A DNA stretch of 28,744 nt. It comes from Stramenopiles sp. TOSAG23-2. Taxonomy: Eukaryota; Sar. Of the stretch, positions 3,522-23,607 are shown piece by piece. The stretch is taken from NCBI GenBank assembly GCA_900128395.1, contig LT649396.1:1-28744 (forward strand), in the 5' to 3' direction. Under the pieces are notes generated by a model, which saw only the letters and a list, made by a program, of their open reading frames with translations, did no database searches and was not told the origin of the DNA. The translations under genes and the position numbers were made by a program. Numbering within the stretch: the stretch's first letter is position 1; each line of letters begins with the position of its first letter.

Positions 3522-5018
3522 ATGTCGGATACAATCCCTGTCTATAGGGAAGAGTATCTAGCCGTACGCTTTATAGTCGCTATTGAATCATTTATAATAT
3601 TTACCTTTATTTTGCATAAATTAATTGTACATAGACACCATATACATTATCACGCTAAAATGGTACACCATCATACAAAAAAGAAAATACGAGATGTACA
3701 CTATCACACCAAATTGAATATAGCGAAAGCGAAGACACGTTTCAAAGTTGCCCGTGCGTTGAGTTCAACGCATGATTTTGATGCTCGCTTAAGATCACCT
3801 CCACAACCTAGACGTATACCAGGAACTAATAATAATACAAAAATCGCACCAGCAGAATTTGATGAAGATGGTAATTTTATTGATAATAATAATAATATGG
3901 ATGGTATAAATAATGATGCAAGTCCTAAAAAAGCCAATGGTAGTCCAAATAAAGCAAGTCCAGTAAAAAAAAATAGGAAAAAAATAAAGCCAACTGATCA
4001 TTCTTGGTATATCGACCCAAAAGAGTTAAAGTTAAAACTAAAAAAGCCAATTGCTAAAGGTACGTTCGGAAAAATTTATATTGGAGAGTGGCTGGGCCTT
4101 GTCGTTACAGCAAAGGAAATTGAAATTAAAACAGCAATGAACCCAAAAGGCAAATGCAAAGCAAGTGCTCAAAAGATAACGGAAGAATTTTACAAACTGT
4201 CTGAAATACGACACCCTAATATCGTTATATTTTTAGGAGCTTGTATTACTCCAAAATGTTATGTAGTTATGGAACATTGTGCGCATGGTACATTAAAAAA
4301 ATGGATGGCAAATCAAGTAAGAGAAAGTAAACGTATAGATATGAGGATTGTGTTAGATTTTTTATCCGATATTGCACGTGGCGTTCGATATGCACATGAA
4401 AAATATAAAATGATGGTTAGAAATTTACAAAGTGCAAAAATTTTCATCGATGAGCATTTACAAGCAAAAATCAGCGTGACTTTTGGCATGTCCCATTCAT
4501 TAAGTGGATTTAAAGATGATGATTATCCCGCATGGAGTGCACCAGAAATTTTAAGAGGCGATGATTATAATGAAAAAGTCGATGTTTTTAGTTTTTCTAT
4601 TGTAATGTGGGAGTTATTGACACGCAGCAAACCGTATGATGATGTCGAAGAGTTGAAGCAATTCAAAAATCCACATGAAGCAATCGCATTTGCAGTTGCA
4701 GAACATCATATGAGACCGGAAATACCAGAATGGTGCCCTGAATCATTGCGAACCTTGATGGTGCATTGTTGGGCTGACGATAGTTATGCAAGGCCGGATT
4801 TTAATGGTATTATACAATATTTAATTCGTATGAAAAATGCAAAAGAAGTTTTAGAAGCGCATGATGCTAAACATGGCCCTAAAGGTGCAATTAAAAGCAT
4901 TCATTCCCCTATCAATTACCAAAGCCCACCTGGATCTACTGGTAAGAAACCAACTTATAAAAAGGGCCCAACAAAAATACCTACTCCAGGTGGATATATT
5001 GTATTGCACACATCATGA
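3522..5018 (+). CDS. membrane-anchored TKL/Raf-like pseudokinase
   Basis: A 498-residue single-pass protein. Residues 12-36 form one hydrophobic helix. A His-rich juxtamembrane stretch follows (10 His in residues 37-62), then an Asn-rich, basic linker, then a kinase fold from about 168 to 436. Retained features: glycine-rich loop (AKGTFG, first Gly replaced by Ala178), the VAIK-type Lys198, an aC Glu (221/222), the TKL-like HPNIVIFLGAC, APE (340-342), and DVFSFSIVMWELL. Lost features: the catalytic loop reads VRNLQSAK (299-306), so the proton-acceptor Asp is Asn301, the following Lys is Gln303 and the Mg-binding Asn is Lys306; DFG is TFG (320-322). Both catalytic aspartates are gone, so phosphotransfer is unlikely, although nucleotide binding through Lys198 remains possible. 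It is most likely a scaffold or allosteric partner at a membrane. Stop is TGA. Family assignment is strong; partner and pathway are unknown. Confidence 0.87.
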   Translation: MSDTIPVYREEYLAVRFIVAIESFIIFTFILHKLIVHRHHIHYHAKMVHHHTKKKIRDVHYHTKLNIAKAKTRFKVARALSSTHDFDARLRSPPQPRRIPGTNNNTKIAPAEFDEDGNFIDNNNNMDGINNDASPKKANGSPNKASPVKKNRKKIKPTDHSWYIDPKELKLKLKKPIAKGTFGKIYIGEWLGLVVTAKEIEIKTAMNPKGKCKASAQKITEEFYKLSEIRHPNIVIFLGACITPKCYVVMEHCAHGTLKKWMANQVRESKRIDMRIVLDFLSDIARGVRYAHEKYKMMVRNLQSAKIFIDEHLQAKISVTFGMSHSLSGFKDDDYPAWSAPEILRGDDYNEKVDVFSFSIVMWELLTRSKPYDDVEELKQFKNPHEAIAFAVAEHHMRPEIPEWCPESLRTLMVHCWADDSYARPDFNGIIQYLIRMKNAKEVLEAHDAKHGPKGAIKSIHSPINYQSPPGSTGKKPTYKKGPTKIPTPGGYIVLHTS

Positions 5019-18771: not shown

Positions 18772-19460
18772 TCTTTAATCATGAAATTAAATAATATTGT
18801 ATAATTTTAAAATGCTAATATTAATTATTTTCTATTGTACAAACATAAAATACAATATCTATATTATATATACAAATATGGATAGCAAAAACTAAAAATA
18901 TATATATTCTTAATTTTTAAACCAATAATATGCATGAAGTTTTCAAAACACGAAACACAAGAGACATAAAAATAAAAAATACATTACTCTAACTCACCCA
19001 TTCTGTTATTAATAAAAGTCTATTGAATATTGAATATATTTATCCCTGCTGTATTAGTATGTGGTATGTTGGTGAACCGAAAATATTAGGATAGGAATAG
19101 CATTATATTAGAGTTGGAGAGTAGTTCAAGCGGAACGTAATTTTATCAAAAAATGCCGATTATGGATATTATTAACATACAAATATCCGATTTTATTTTG
19201 TAAAATGGTAAAAAAATTCTCATTCGTTATTTATATTGCTTTTTAAAAAATGAAATCACAAAATCCTTTTTTAAAATTCATTTTTTGATAAAATTAATTA
19301 CGTTTTTTCGGTCCCACCATAATAAGGCAGATTATATATCTCCATCACATTCAATATAGCCCAATTTAAATATACTGTAAGGAAAATACCTTGACAGATA
19401 TTCAGTGTAAACCGTAGGAAATTATAGTAGCACCAGGCAACAAATAATACCGATAACAAC
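18772..19460. other. divergent intergenic region
   Basis: 689 bp upstream of the Sec-type GST gene (+) and the small membrane protein (-). Very AT-rich except near 19305-19330. Contains the inverted-repeat element at 19134-19304. No coding signal. Confidence 0.5.
19134..19304. mobile_element. 171-bp MITE-like element with terminal inverted repeats
   Basis: Left arm AACGTAATTTTATCAAAAAATG (19134-19155) is the reverse complement of the right arm (19279-19304) except for a TAAT insertion in the right arm. The inside is AT-rich, without an ORF, and holds a smaller GGATAT...ATATCC hairpin (about 19164-19194). Size and structure fit a non-autonomous DNA transposon remnant. CGG flanks it on both sides, directly on the left and four bases out on the right, so a target-site duplication is not clear. 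Confidence 0.5.
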
Positions 19461-20369
19461 ATGGCATCTGCAGTAACATTTTACAATGATGCGTTAACAC
19501 ATAATGGGAAGTCCAAGTGACCTTGGGCGCACAGGGCATGGTTAACTTTACTTGAAAAAAAGGTTAACTTTACTACAATTCCTGTGCCTTTAAACAATAA
19601 GCCGCAGTGGTATAAAGATCTATATGCGTCTGTACATCCTGATCCGCTGGCAAGGGCAAAAGTTCCAATTATTGAGATTGGCAAGCCAAATGATGCTGAA
19701 TATCAAATCTTAGTTGAATCTGATGTGGTTGCACGATTTGTGGCTGAAAACTGGAAATCACAAGGTGAACAGTTAGTTCCTGATAATAAGTTTGCCGAAG
19801 CTAAAATGAATTTATTTATTGGACAATTTATGGAAAAGTTAGGTACAACAATATTTTCTTTTCCTGCTACCAAAAAACCAAACGCAGCGAATAAAGCTTT
19901 TTTAAAAATTTTGTACGGATTGCAAACAGTCGAAGCTTCATTAAAAATGCATGGGGAAACAGAAAGTGGACCGTATTTCTTTGGAAAACAATATTCACTT
20001 GCTGAAACGTTAACTGCTCCATTTATTTTGCGTATGAACATTTTATTCAAGCATCATCGCGGAGTTGATCTGTTGGATTGTTGCGAACAAATTGGCGCAT
20101 TGAAAACAAAACGATGGATGGAAGCCATTCAACAAAGACAAAGTTCCAAAGACTCATTGCCTGCCGAGAATAGTCTTCTTGCTATTCCACCATACCAACA
20201 GCCATTTTTTGAATATTCAGTTCCACATGATGTTCAAGCAAATGCAATTGCAAAAGTCACGAAAGACATTGTATCGGCAAAATTAGAAGAAGAAGCTGCG
20301 TTTGCAAAAACGTTAAAAGATGGGTCTAAACTTGCTGGATATAAAGATGGAACTTTAAGCAAACTTTAG
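19461..20369 (+). CDS. GST-fold thiol transferase with in-frame TGA at the catalytic position (putative selenoprotein)
   Basis: Read from ATG 19461 (AACAACATGGC) to TAG 20369, the frame has 302 sense positions and one TGA, at 19518-19520 (codon 20). The N-terminal thioredoxin-like half reads MASAVTFYNDALTHNGKSK, TGA, PWAHRAWLTLLEKK. In omega/GHR-like GSTs this spot is the nucleophilic Cys of CPF/CPWAHR, so TGA replaces exactly that residue; translation as selenocysteine gives UPWAHR. The rest of the fold is intact: VPLNNKPQW (42-50), the cis-Pro region KVPIIEI (67-73), the glutathione-binding ES in LVESDVV (84-90), then an all-helical C-terminal domain. The proposed activity is glutathione-dependent thiol transfer or reduction in the cytosol. 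TGA is a true stop in other genes here. No convincing SECIS was found in the 3' region; the alternatives are a recent nonsense mutation or sequencing error. Confidence 0.85.
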
Positions 20370-20414
20370 CTACTATGTATATTAATCAAGTCGTACGACA
20401 TGTTGTATTCATGG

Positions 20415-20447
<33 letters not shown>

Positions 20448-21183
20448 TCATGGCATACACATGTGTGTGTGTATATATATATGGATTGGAAATGTAATTT
20501 CAACAGTACTGATAGACAAATACACTATAATATGTATAATACAATGATTTTGAATGATGTTTTTGAAGTTGTAAAAAGAAATTAACATACACATATGTAA
20601 ATTTTTAATTTTAAGAATTGATGAGAAAATGAAAAATACACATATTATTGAAATTATATACGAAGTAATGGTGCTAATGAATATCATATAAACATATAAA
20701 TATGTATTATATATTATAAGTATAGACCTATGACCCCCGGTTACTCTGATCAAATTGGGCATTGGGCACCCTTCCATTATGATTATAGGTTATTTTTTTC
20801 ATGACTTTCAACATTTTTCGTATACTACTTAGCATAGCTTCCTAGTTAATTGCTCCTTTTTTGAGAAAAAATTATTTTGCACCTTTTTATGGATATTTTT
20901 ATGTTGATAAATACATGTATGTATGTAAATTGATATTTCAGGAATAGAGGAGAAGAAGCCGAAAGATTTAGATTCACATGGTCAGAGAGGACATGGTTTG
21001 TAAAAAAGTGGGGGGGCATTTCATTCATCATCAGTATTTTTTATTAGCATATCGAAAATATAGCAATACACACACACATAGACAAATGTATATGTATACA
21101 TACAGATACAGAATTTATCTACCATTAACATTCTGATCAAATATTTTAAAACAACAAAACAACAGAAAAGGAAAACGTGTTCC
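20370..21183. other. 3' region of the GST gene and spacer
   Basis: 814 bp between two forward genes. Contains a duplicated TTCATGGCATACA (20408-20420 and 20447-20459) separated by a TA microsatellite, then TG and TA runs. ATGA tetramers that might seed a SECIS occur at 20677-20680 (followed 10 nt later by AA, and by GA at 20725) and at 20730-20733. Helix pairing around both is weak. No coding signal to 21183. Confidence 0.4.
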
Positions 21184-23607
21184 ATGTCTCCCATCACTAT
21201 GTCTTCATCCTCCACTGTTATATTTCATCGTCACCAACAATCAACGTTAGTATTATTACTATTACTAAGTATATTGTTATATATAAGCCCTATCCATTGT
21301 GTTAAACCAAAAGGTGAAAGCAAAGCATTATTAAGAGTTCTAAATGATGTAGACAATGTATTGAGTAAAGAAACCAAAGTCTTAGAAGAACTTCAAGCTA
21401 ATCGTTTTAAGGAGAAGAAGTATTATGAAATCGTTGACGGTGATTGTAAATGTTCAAACTGGAACCCATTATCAAAATGTGGTGATAATAGTGAGTGTAA
21501 GCCAGATGCACAATATAAAAATCCTTGCAAACATACATGCATTTGCGAAGAAGATTTAGCCAACCCAGAATGTAGATGCGCTAAAGAGGTCCCAAAACCA
21601 GCAACGTTTGAAGAAACGTTGAAAGAAAGTGGTGACAAATGTGCAGATTGGTGTAATTGTATGGCAGATGAACTATTATACGGTTTAACTCACTCTTTGC
21701 CATATGACGCAGATGATCATGGCTTATATCACTTTAAAAAAGTTGATAGGAAAGACTCAGTTTTTAAAATAGATAAAGAAACCAAAAAATGGCAAATATC
21801 TTATAGTCATAGGTTTAAAAAAAACAGTAAAAAATTTGTTACTAGTAAGGCATTTATTAACATAGATGATGAAGAGAATAAAGGTAAACTGGACAAATTA
21901 ACAAAGAAAGACTTCGAGGCCAAATTAGCAATTGATTTATTGCAATATTTTAAAAATCAACCCGATGATAGGCCAACGCATGCAAACCCATTGGAAAGAC
22001 AACGTAATGAACGATGTAATATTTTAAAGAACCCGAAAGAATGCAAACAAGATGAAACGTGTGAATGGCACTTTTTTATGGGTGCTAAACCAACATGCCA
22101 AGCAAAAGATCCATGTTTTAAATATGATGACGATGAAGAAGCGTGTAAAGCTGATGAGTTATGTACAACTGGAACTATAAGGCATGGTCTCAAATTTTAC
22201 AGTTGTTCCATCGCAAATCCAGCTGATCAACCTCACAACTCCGCAAAAGCCAGTGAAGATGCTGAAATGTGTTATAAATCGTTAAAAATACCACAATGCA
22301 GCTGTAGGAAAACTAAATGTTCCTTAGCACTAGCAAAACGATTTGTAAAAGTTGCTGATGATATGCGCCGTATGACTACATCAAAGCAAAGTAAGGATTC
22401 GTTACTAGATAATTTTCAATTTGCATTGGATATGCTGGGAATGTTGCCGGGCATAGGCGAAGTTACCGATATTTTGAGTGGGGCTTTATACGGAGCAAGA
22501 AAAATGTGGAAAGATATGCTTTTATCATTCATATCACTTATGCCTGGTGTAGGTCAAATTATAGGGAAATTACGTTTGGCAAGAAAACTGTGTCGTAAAT
22601 GTTGGGATGGTATTATGTCATCAATCGATTTTGTTTTAAGTTCTGGTATTTTAATAGATGTATTGAAAGAATTATGGTTGATGGTAAAAAAAGGATTAAC
22701 TGGAAAAATAAAAAGCATACTCAAATCAATAATAGCATTTGGTAAACGATTTACCTCTGCAATAATTCATCCAGTCATAATAGCAAATAAAGGTACAATT
22801 GCATTTTTAAAAGCTGCAAAAAACAAAAACGTGAAAGGTGGTGAAGAAAAAGCTATAATAGATTATACAGCAGATATTATTTTAAAAATGGCTGAAAATA
22901 AAAATTGTAATGTAAACCGATTTCAAGTAGAGCTTCTAGAACTTGTACAGCAAGTTTTACCAAATTTAAATAGTGTAGCAAAAAAGTTTGATCAAGATCA
23001 TTTAATCCCTGCAGGCAGTTTTTTAGCAGCTATATATCCATGCATATTGCATTTAGAACATATAAAAAAAGAAGATTGTAAAGTAGCTCAAGAAAATATT
23101 GTCAAAGGAAGAGAAGCTCTCGTTAATCGAATACCTGGTTTAAGACAATGTTTAGTTGGTAAAGTTTCTACTTTGCATGATCATATAAGTGGTAAATTTG
23201 ATGCAAATCAAGTTAAAATTAATCCAATGGATGAAAAATGTGATGATCAGGAAGGAACAGAGGATAGCGATTGTTTGCATAATGTAAATGGAAAATGCAC
23301 AGTCACCGCTGCATGTCCTGGAGCGCAACGTGCCCCAGGTCATTGTTCAGAGGATGGTATTATTTGTTGTTTACATCCACCGAAAAAAGAACCAGATAAT
23401 AATAGTAGTTTTATTGAATTGCAAGAAACTTCCACAACAATTTACAATAACGTTGATAAAAAGAATTTAGTAAATGAAGCACACGAAGCTATGTTTGATT
23501 TGTTTGACAATACTGTTGATGATATGATTGCAATAGATAATTCAAAAAGTAGATATGAACATAGCTTAGAATTATTGGAAATAATGAGTGCAAATAGAGA
23601 AAAATAG
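21184..23607 (+). CDS. large secreted Cys-rich protein with a polymorphic-toxin-like hydrophobic hairpin
   Basis: An 807-residue extracellular or secretory-pathway protein. Signal peptide at about residues 20-39 (TLVLLLLLSILLYISPIHC). Cys-rich segments: 88-160 (CKCSNW...CADWCNCM) and 278-380 (CEWHFF...CSCRKTKC). A hydrophobic region follows, 404-465, with two related segments, MLGMLPGIGEVTDI (417-430) and FISLMPGVGQIIGK (449-462); this LxPGxGEx...IPGVG pattern is found in the membrane-associated pre-toxin regions of bacterial polymorphic toxins. Helical region 480-680. A small Cys module (686-729, ending GKCTVTAACPG...GHCSEDGIICC) resembles CC-ended secreted modules in fungi and invertebrates. 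I see no toxin or enzyme domain after it. Function unknown; a surface, defence or matrix role is a guess. Intronless; either ATG 21184 or 21199 could start it. Confidence 0.75.
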   Translation: MSPITMSSSSTVIFHRHQQSTLVLLLLLSILLYISPIHCVKPKGESKALLRVLNDVDNVLSKETKVLEELQANRFKEKKYYEIVDGDCKCSNWNPLSKCGDNSECKPDAQYKNPCKHTCICEEDLANPECRCAKEVPKPATFEETLKESGDKCADWCNCMADELLYGLTHSLPYDADDHGLYHFKKVDRKDSVFKIDKETKKWQISYSHRFKKNSKKFVTSKAFINIDDEENKGKLDKLTKKDFEAKLAIDLLQYFKNQPDDRPTHANPLERQRNERCNILKNPKECKQDETCEWHFFMGAKPTCQAKDPCFKYDDDEEACKADELCTTGTIRHGLKFYSCSIANPADQPHNSAKASEDAEMCYKSLKIPQCSCRKTKCSLALAKRFVKVADDMRRMTTSKQSKDSLLDNFQFALDMLGMLPGIGEVTDILSGALYGARKMWKDMLLSFISLMPGVGQIIGKLRLARKLCRKCWDGIMSSIDFVLSSGILIDVLKELWLMVKKGLTGKIKSILKSIIAFGKRFTSAIIHPVIIANKGTIAFLKAAKNKNVKGGEEKAIIDYTADIILKMAENKNCNVNRFQVELLELVQQVLPNLNSVAKKFDQDHLIPAGSFLAAIYPCILHLEHIKKEDCKVAQENIVKGREALVNRIPGLRQCLVGKVSTLHDHISGKFDANQVKINPMDEKCDDQEGTEDSDCLHNVNGKCTVTAACPGAQRAPGHCSEDGIICCLHPPKKEPDNNSSFIELQETSTTIYNNVDKKNLVNEAHEAMFDLFDNTVDDMIAIDNSKSRYEHSLELLEIMSANREK

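Follow-up and report, generated by a model that had tools for sequence, protein, structure and literature searches.

Glutathione transferases (GSTs) that carry selenocysteine (Sec) are described from algae and from marine bacteria. The algal selenoprotein families treated in the text of PMC7539508 include a Sec-GST, with a GST-DsbA cluster in the Mamiellales and a GST-MSRA fusion in Emiliania huxleyi, and nearly 90% of the algae genomes contain GSTs as homologs of the Cys or another type. For bacteria, passages of PMC1088965 report four Sargasso Sea sequences belonging to COG0625, the Global Ocean Sampling table in PMC2398784 contains 12, and an entry in a 2026 review lists PF13409 for the bacterial Sec-GST (PMC13188914). 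Yeast offers a further comparison, the omega-like GTO1, which passages of PMC10565873 describe as peroxisomal and glutaredoxin-like in vitro, strains lacking GTO1 growing poorly on oleate. Here we analysed a stretch of 28,744 nucleotides from Stramenopiles sp. TOSAG23-2 (contig LT649396.1, assembly GCA_900128395.1), henceforth the window, which encodes a putative Sec-GST, GST1 (19461..20369, + strand), whose in-frame TGA at codon 20 is very probably a real Sec codon.

GST1 resembles the algal Sec-GST family, which is likewise eukaryotic and also has Cys and other-residue members, and differs from it in that the main text of PMC7539508 contains neither 'peroxisom' nor 'SKL', the C-terminus of GST1, and in that no light-harvesting gene was matched in the host genome, which may be incomplete. 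The sequence data suggest that the host is a heterotroph and perhaps not an alga. With the bacterial Sec-GSTs it shares the superfamily, and PF13409 is its best Pfam match; unlike them, GST1 has a candidate selenocysteine insertion sequence (SECIS) in its 3' region and an end resembling a type 1 peroxisomal targeting signal (PTS1). In bacteria the SECIS adjoins the UGA. Yeast GTO1 has Cys, not Sec, at the exact residue. Compared by description only, it is like GST1 as an omega-like monothiol GST, with the location and in vitro activity just cited (PMC10565873). Leishmania thiol-dependent reductase 1 (TDR1; 4ags), human GSTO1 (1eem) and the plant dehydroascorbate reductases (DHARs) differ in having a Cys nucleophile, with 18-26% identity in structural rows. 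Sec in this type of GST had been considered unusual in the preliminary description of the window, a view that does not hold, since Sec-GSTs are reported both from algae (PMC7539508) and from bacteria of the sea (PMC1088965, PMC2398784); less usual than Sec-GST itself are the C-terminal SKL, which close relatives also have in the form S[KR]L, and the finding of no light-harvesting genes.

Results

GST1 was read as a single exon of 302 codons (302 aa) from an ATG at 19461 to a TAG at 20367-20369, with an in-frame TAG at 19428 upstream of the ATG. The TGA at codon 20 (19518..19520, + strand), the proposed Sec codon U20 at the catalytic residue, is the sole internal stop; it stands in the context ...NGKSK-TGA-PWAHRAWL..., and 282 codons are open 3' of it. 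A search of 5.8 billion proteins returned six relatives by single sequence and 16 by profile, those six included, and the seven that reach the site (P0009, P0010, P0012-P0016) all have Cys there, in the motif CPFAHR. When the TGA is read as Cys, residue 20 also aligns with Cys in three PDB alignments (TDR1 and two DHAR chains), so that an in-frame TGA stands where homologs have Cys, the pattern by which a selenoprotein is recognised. Both the 302-codon frame with its single TGA and the placement of that TGA at the nucleophile position, as first proposed from the sequence, are confirmed by these results.

In the genome (17.45 Mb in 793 contigs) four matches to GST1 were found, namely in the window and on contigs C209, C84 and C231. 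Contig C209 equals the window over its first 24.9 kb (1-24912) with one mismatch and then diverges (838 of 26105 positions differ overall); it is an assembly or haplotype duplicate of the window, and therefore its identical GST frame provides no independent confirmation. The C84 paralog, a 356-aa frame only 36-37% identical to GST1, has a TGA at codon 100 that aligns with codon 20 of GST1 (VTFYNDALTHNGKSK-U-PWAHRAW in GST1, ITFWNNAMTENGASD-U-PWSQRPW in C84), and the proposed Sec codon is thus kept in a homolog, one of the same genome. In the 15 codons 5' of the TGA, eight residues are identical between the two genes, six of them through different codons, and the TGA is unchanged; because residues are kept although codons have diverged, translation seems to cover the sequence on either side of the TGA, and the TGA appears to be kept. 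As far as sequence comparison can tell, this paralog argues decisively for Sec, and it bears out the earlier argument that a TGA at the catalytic site goes beyond chance. The protein encoded on C231 is a more distant GST with Cys at the site (CPFAHRSW).

The genome also encodes Sec machinery, on which the preliminary proposal had been made to depend. Two tRNA-Sec genes with the anticodon TCA score above the cut-off (64.4 bits each), and a third, weak tRNA-Sec match is called as tRNA-Ser; SepSecS (in three pieces) and SelD are present. An eEFSec-like gene on contig C1 falls below the cut-off of the bacterial SelB model, and a 176-residue piece of it matches eEFSec best in PDB (2.5e-57), followed by archaeal-type SelB at 3e-26 and eIF2-gamma at 2.9e-21. 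The two equal-score tRNA-Sec genes lie in tandem with their starts 179 bases apart (C227:11214-11478). SelD (C587:2942-3874) is inside an 846-aa open frame and may be a fusion with another domain.

One in-frame TGA each was found in the single GPx match, in one of the four MsrA matches and in two of the 29 thioredoxin-domain matches (contexts ARLUDVQ, GAGUFW, APWUGHC and CRQGUGYC), at positions which we take to be the redox residues. The GPx gene lies at C22:45799-46119, with SepSecS about 14 kb away on the same contig, and the MsrA gene, with its TGA at GUFW, at C36:28646-29056, the three other MsrA-domain matches having no TGA. The two thioredoxin/PDI-like genes have the TGA in the active site, WUGHC at C690:7139-7441 and GUGYC at C147:10478-10726; the latter protein ends in KEL. 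A search of the genome for SelM/Sep15, which had no control match, found none, and a search for Rdx gave a single match, in a 1002-aa frame without TGA. In viral contigs the patterns matched 34 stretches, of which not one codes for a relative.

The 3' region of GST1, which reaches the next long open frame (20370..21183, + strand; 814 bases), holds one match to a custom SECIS descriptor (core TGA, helix, apical AA, core GA). This candidate, at 20547..20630 on the + strand, has its core TGA at 20555, its GA at 20620 and a 13-bp helix. Folded with RNAfold it takes the canonical shape: helix I (20547-20551/20626-20630), a 7-by-7 internal loop (GAATGAT at 20552-20558 and TGATGAG at 20619-20625, with ATGA/TGAT), helix II of 13 bp (20559-20571/20606-20618), an A-rich 5' bulge and a mini-stem. 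Among 19 control 3' regions (17 distinct ones at most, since two pairs give an identical match) and 10 chosen window frames, not one equalled its score. The same descriptor recognised clear SECIS-like elements, of different loop size, after the GPx and C690 genes (0/200 shuffles as good for each), and the best match of C84 was equalled by 3/200 shuffles in 814 bases and by 22/200 in 1600 bases. The GPx hairpin begins about 30 bases past the GPx stop.

With the TGA read as Cys, GST1 matches Pfam GST_N_2 above the cut-off (45.4 bits, from residue 20), whereas GST_C_5 remains below it (21 bits, cut-off 27) and passes it in the C84 paralog; NCBIfam has no family for GST1. In the predicted structure (mean predicted local distance difference test score 90.1) a strand spans residues 5-10 and a helix residues 21-32, which would place residue 20 at the start of the first helix; a thioredoxin-like N-domain, a Cys/Sec opening the first helix and a helical C-domain, features of Cys-type GSTs, are all found. 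Tau-class GSTs have no catalytic Cys. Since they tie by Z with Leishmania TDR1, GSTO1 and the DHARs in a VIA-align fold comparison of the model, the class of GST1 is not decidable by fold. Among the matches listed, the best by sequence are TDR1, DHAR and omega GSTs, which upholds the omega part of the omega/GHR-like assignment first given. Glutathionyl-hydroquinone reductases (GHRs) are named in none of the 28 PDB-alignment matches, the best 60 of 234 profile matches or the 50 fold entries listed, and the GHR part is left with the PWA motif, the sole feature pointing to GHRs (passages of PMC4138524). GST1 most likely belongs to the omega/DHAR/thiol-dependent-reductase type and acts, through a putative selenol nucleophile, as a glutathione (GSH)-dependent reductase or deglutathionylase.

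The window also encodes a kinesin, an EF-hand Na/Ca exchanger, a kinase and ankyrin repeats; these genes, together with genes in pieces (SepSecS), identify the host as a eukaryote. Next to the 3' region of GST1, at 21184-23607, lies a gene whose 807-aa product contains cysteine-rich stretches, matches nothing in Pfam and has a start that resembles a signal peptide by eye.

Discussion

We consider it highly probable that GST1 is a selenoprotein, i.e., a Cys-type (omega/DHAR/TDR-like) GST in which the nucleophilic Cys is replaced by Sec, the UGA at codon 20 being decoded by tRNA-Sec and eEFSec with a 3' SECIS. In Cys-GSTs, according to passages of PMC4138524, the catalytic Cys attacks the glutathionylated substrate, becomes glutathionylated itself and is regenerated by GSH. 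By analogy, glutathione mixed disulfides or GSH conjugates would be attacked by a selenol positioned where the first helix of the thioredoxin fold begins, a selenenyl-glutathione intermediate would form and GSH would regenerate the selenol; since the UPWA motif has no second Cys, a monothiol cycle is expected. The SKL end would send GST1 to peroxisomes, where it may restore targets that have been glutathionylated or oxidised by peroxide, a role also suggested for yeast GTO1. The frame, the site, the machinery genes and the C84 paralog are seen directly in the sequence; decoding, SECIS function, chemistry and location are inferred from them.

Several results weigh against Sec in GST1. The close family (P0001-P0006, P0008 and P0011) stops short of the site and hence has no vote, and the seven Cys relatives were retrieved with a query that itself carried Cys there. 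The SECIS candidate, statistically weak alone, was matched or exceeded in score by 22/200 and 141/1000 shuffles, ranks seventh of 13 descriptor matches on both window strands (six are better) and has an ordinary fold energy (z -0.88; 37/200 shuffles). Rfam gave no SECIS match in the window and the 3' region, a stricter descriptor gave none in the 3' regions of the MsrA and C147 genes, and SECIS_1 gave none over the genome, a silence that says little, the two clear elements behind GPx and C690 having escaped SECIS_1 as well. Finally, TGA was sought mostly in redox families, and its occurrence at redox residues is therefore partly a matter of choice. Taken by itself, the element at 20547-20630 is plausible as a real SECIS, although not proven.

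An S[KR]L C-terminus is a PTS1, a peroxisome signal. GST1 ends in Ser-Lys-Leu (codons at 20358..20366, + strand) and thus has such an end, as do P0001-P0005, in which the C-terminal part is kept (SKL or SRL), and the C231 Cys paralog (S[KR]L); of the distant relatives, P0007 ends in SKL, and P0009, P0010 and P0012-P0016 are without an S[KR]L end. Judged from these sequences, GST1 is probably peroxisomal. That it is a Sec-GST outside peroxisomes, its SKL end being incidental, is the alternative that survives best, and we regard it as unlikely but still to be reckoned with: as read, the Sec paralog on C84 has FAR as its last residues (a further exon is possible), and P0006, P0008 and P0011 end otherwise, though they depart from the family pattern before the end, whereas the S[KR]L ends of P0001-P0005 and C231 speak against it.

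The remaining alternatives concern the TGA itself, and here the database proteins must be read with care. Nine of the 16 relatives, the close family and P0007, fall short of the site, and P0001 (a 99% cluster with 23 members) has 261 aa, exactly the length of the open frame that begins after the TGA. When residues 1-70 were used as the query, only P0001 appeared among 14 candidates, and at this sensitivity the close family yielded no version with a sense codon, which is consistent with TGA elsewhere in the family without proving it. Truncated relatives are no proof of a TGA because contig ends and introns also shorten proteins; the cluster to which the C231 Cys paralog belongs, P0007, likewise begins after its Cys, and therefore a truncated database protein alone is no evidence of a stop. 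An ordinary Cys-GST with a nonsense mutation or a sequencing error (a fresh pseudogene or a wrong base) could be suspected, given that TGA is one base away from the Cys codons TGT and TGC and that the SECIS candidate is weak alone; we nevertheless judge it very improbable, because the same TGA recurs in the diverged C84 paralog, the codons past it are open and the length of P0001 is that of the frame starting after the site. Even less credible is a shorter GST that begins 3' of the TGA (e.g., at GTG 19584) with the upstream part untranslated: a protein of precisely its length exists in the databases, but the predicted fold would then be without its first strand and helix, and residues 5' of the TGA are kept with C84 through synonymous differences.

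In-frame TGA in six distinct genes might also suggest that TGA is generally recoded or read through as Trp, Cys or Arg. However, none is found in 27/29 thioredoxin-domain, 3/3 SepSecS, 8/8 SelB-like and 1/1 SelD matches, so that there is no general recoding of TGA; past 5/21 control matches (introns ignored) the stop reached first in frame is TGA, and two window genes end in TGA, one of them the kinase-like neighbour at 3522-5018, the pseudokinase for which TGA had initially been described as a normal stop. With the Sec machinery present as well, recoding of this kind is hardly tenable.

A reading of GST1 as a selenoprotein suggests that the 261-aa P0001 in the databases is a mis-annotated, truncated selenoenzyme. 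One Cys and two putative Sec paralogs in one genome would form a natural set for studying what selenium changes in the chemistry of Cys-type GSTs. In the literature searched (titles and the openings of abstracts, with few subscription journals covered) no selenoprotein was reported in peroxisomes, and the enzymes of GSH-based repair are described in passages of PMC10565873 as poorly known in these organelles. The proposal that a peroxisome-targeted Sec-GST, next to a second Sec paralog without the tag, brings Sec chemistry to the peroxisome of a small, apparently non-photosynthetic protist is one that we hold to be evenly balanced; if the SKL signal works, selenol chemistry would be placed in peroxisomes.
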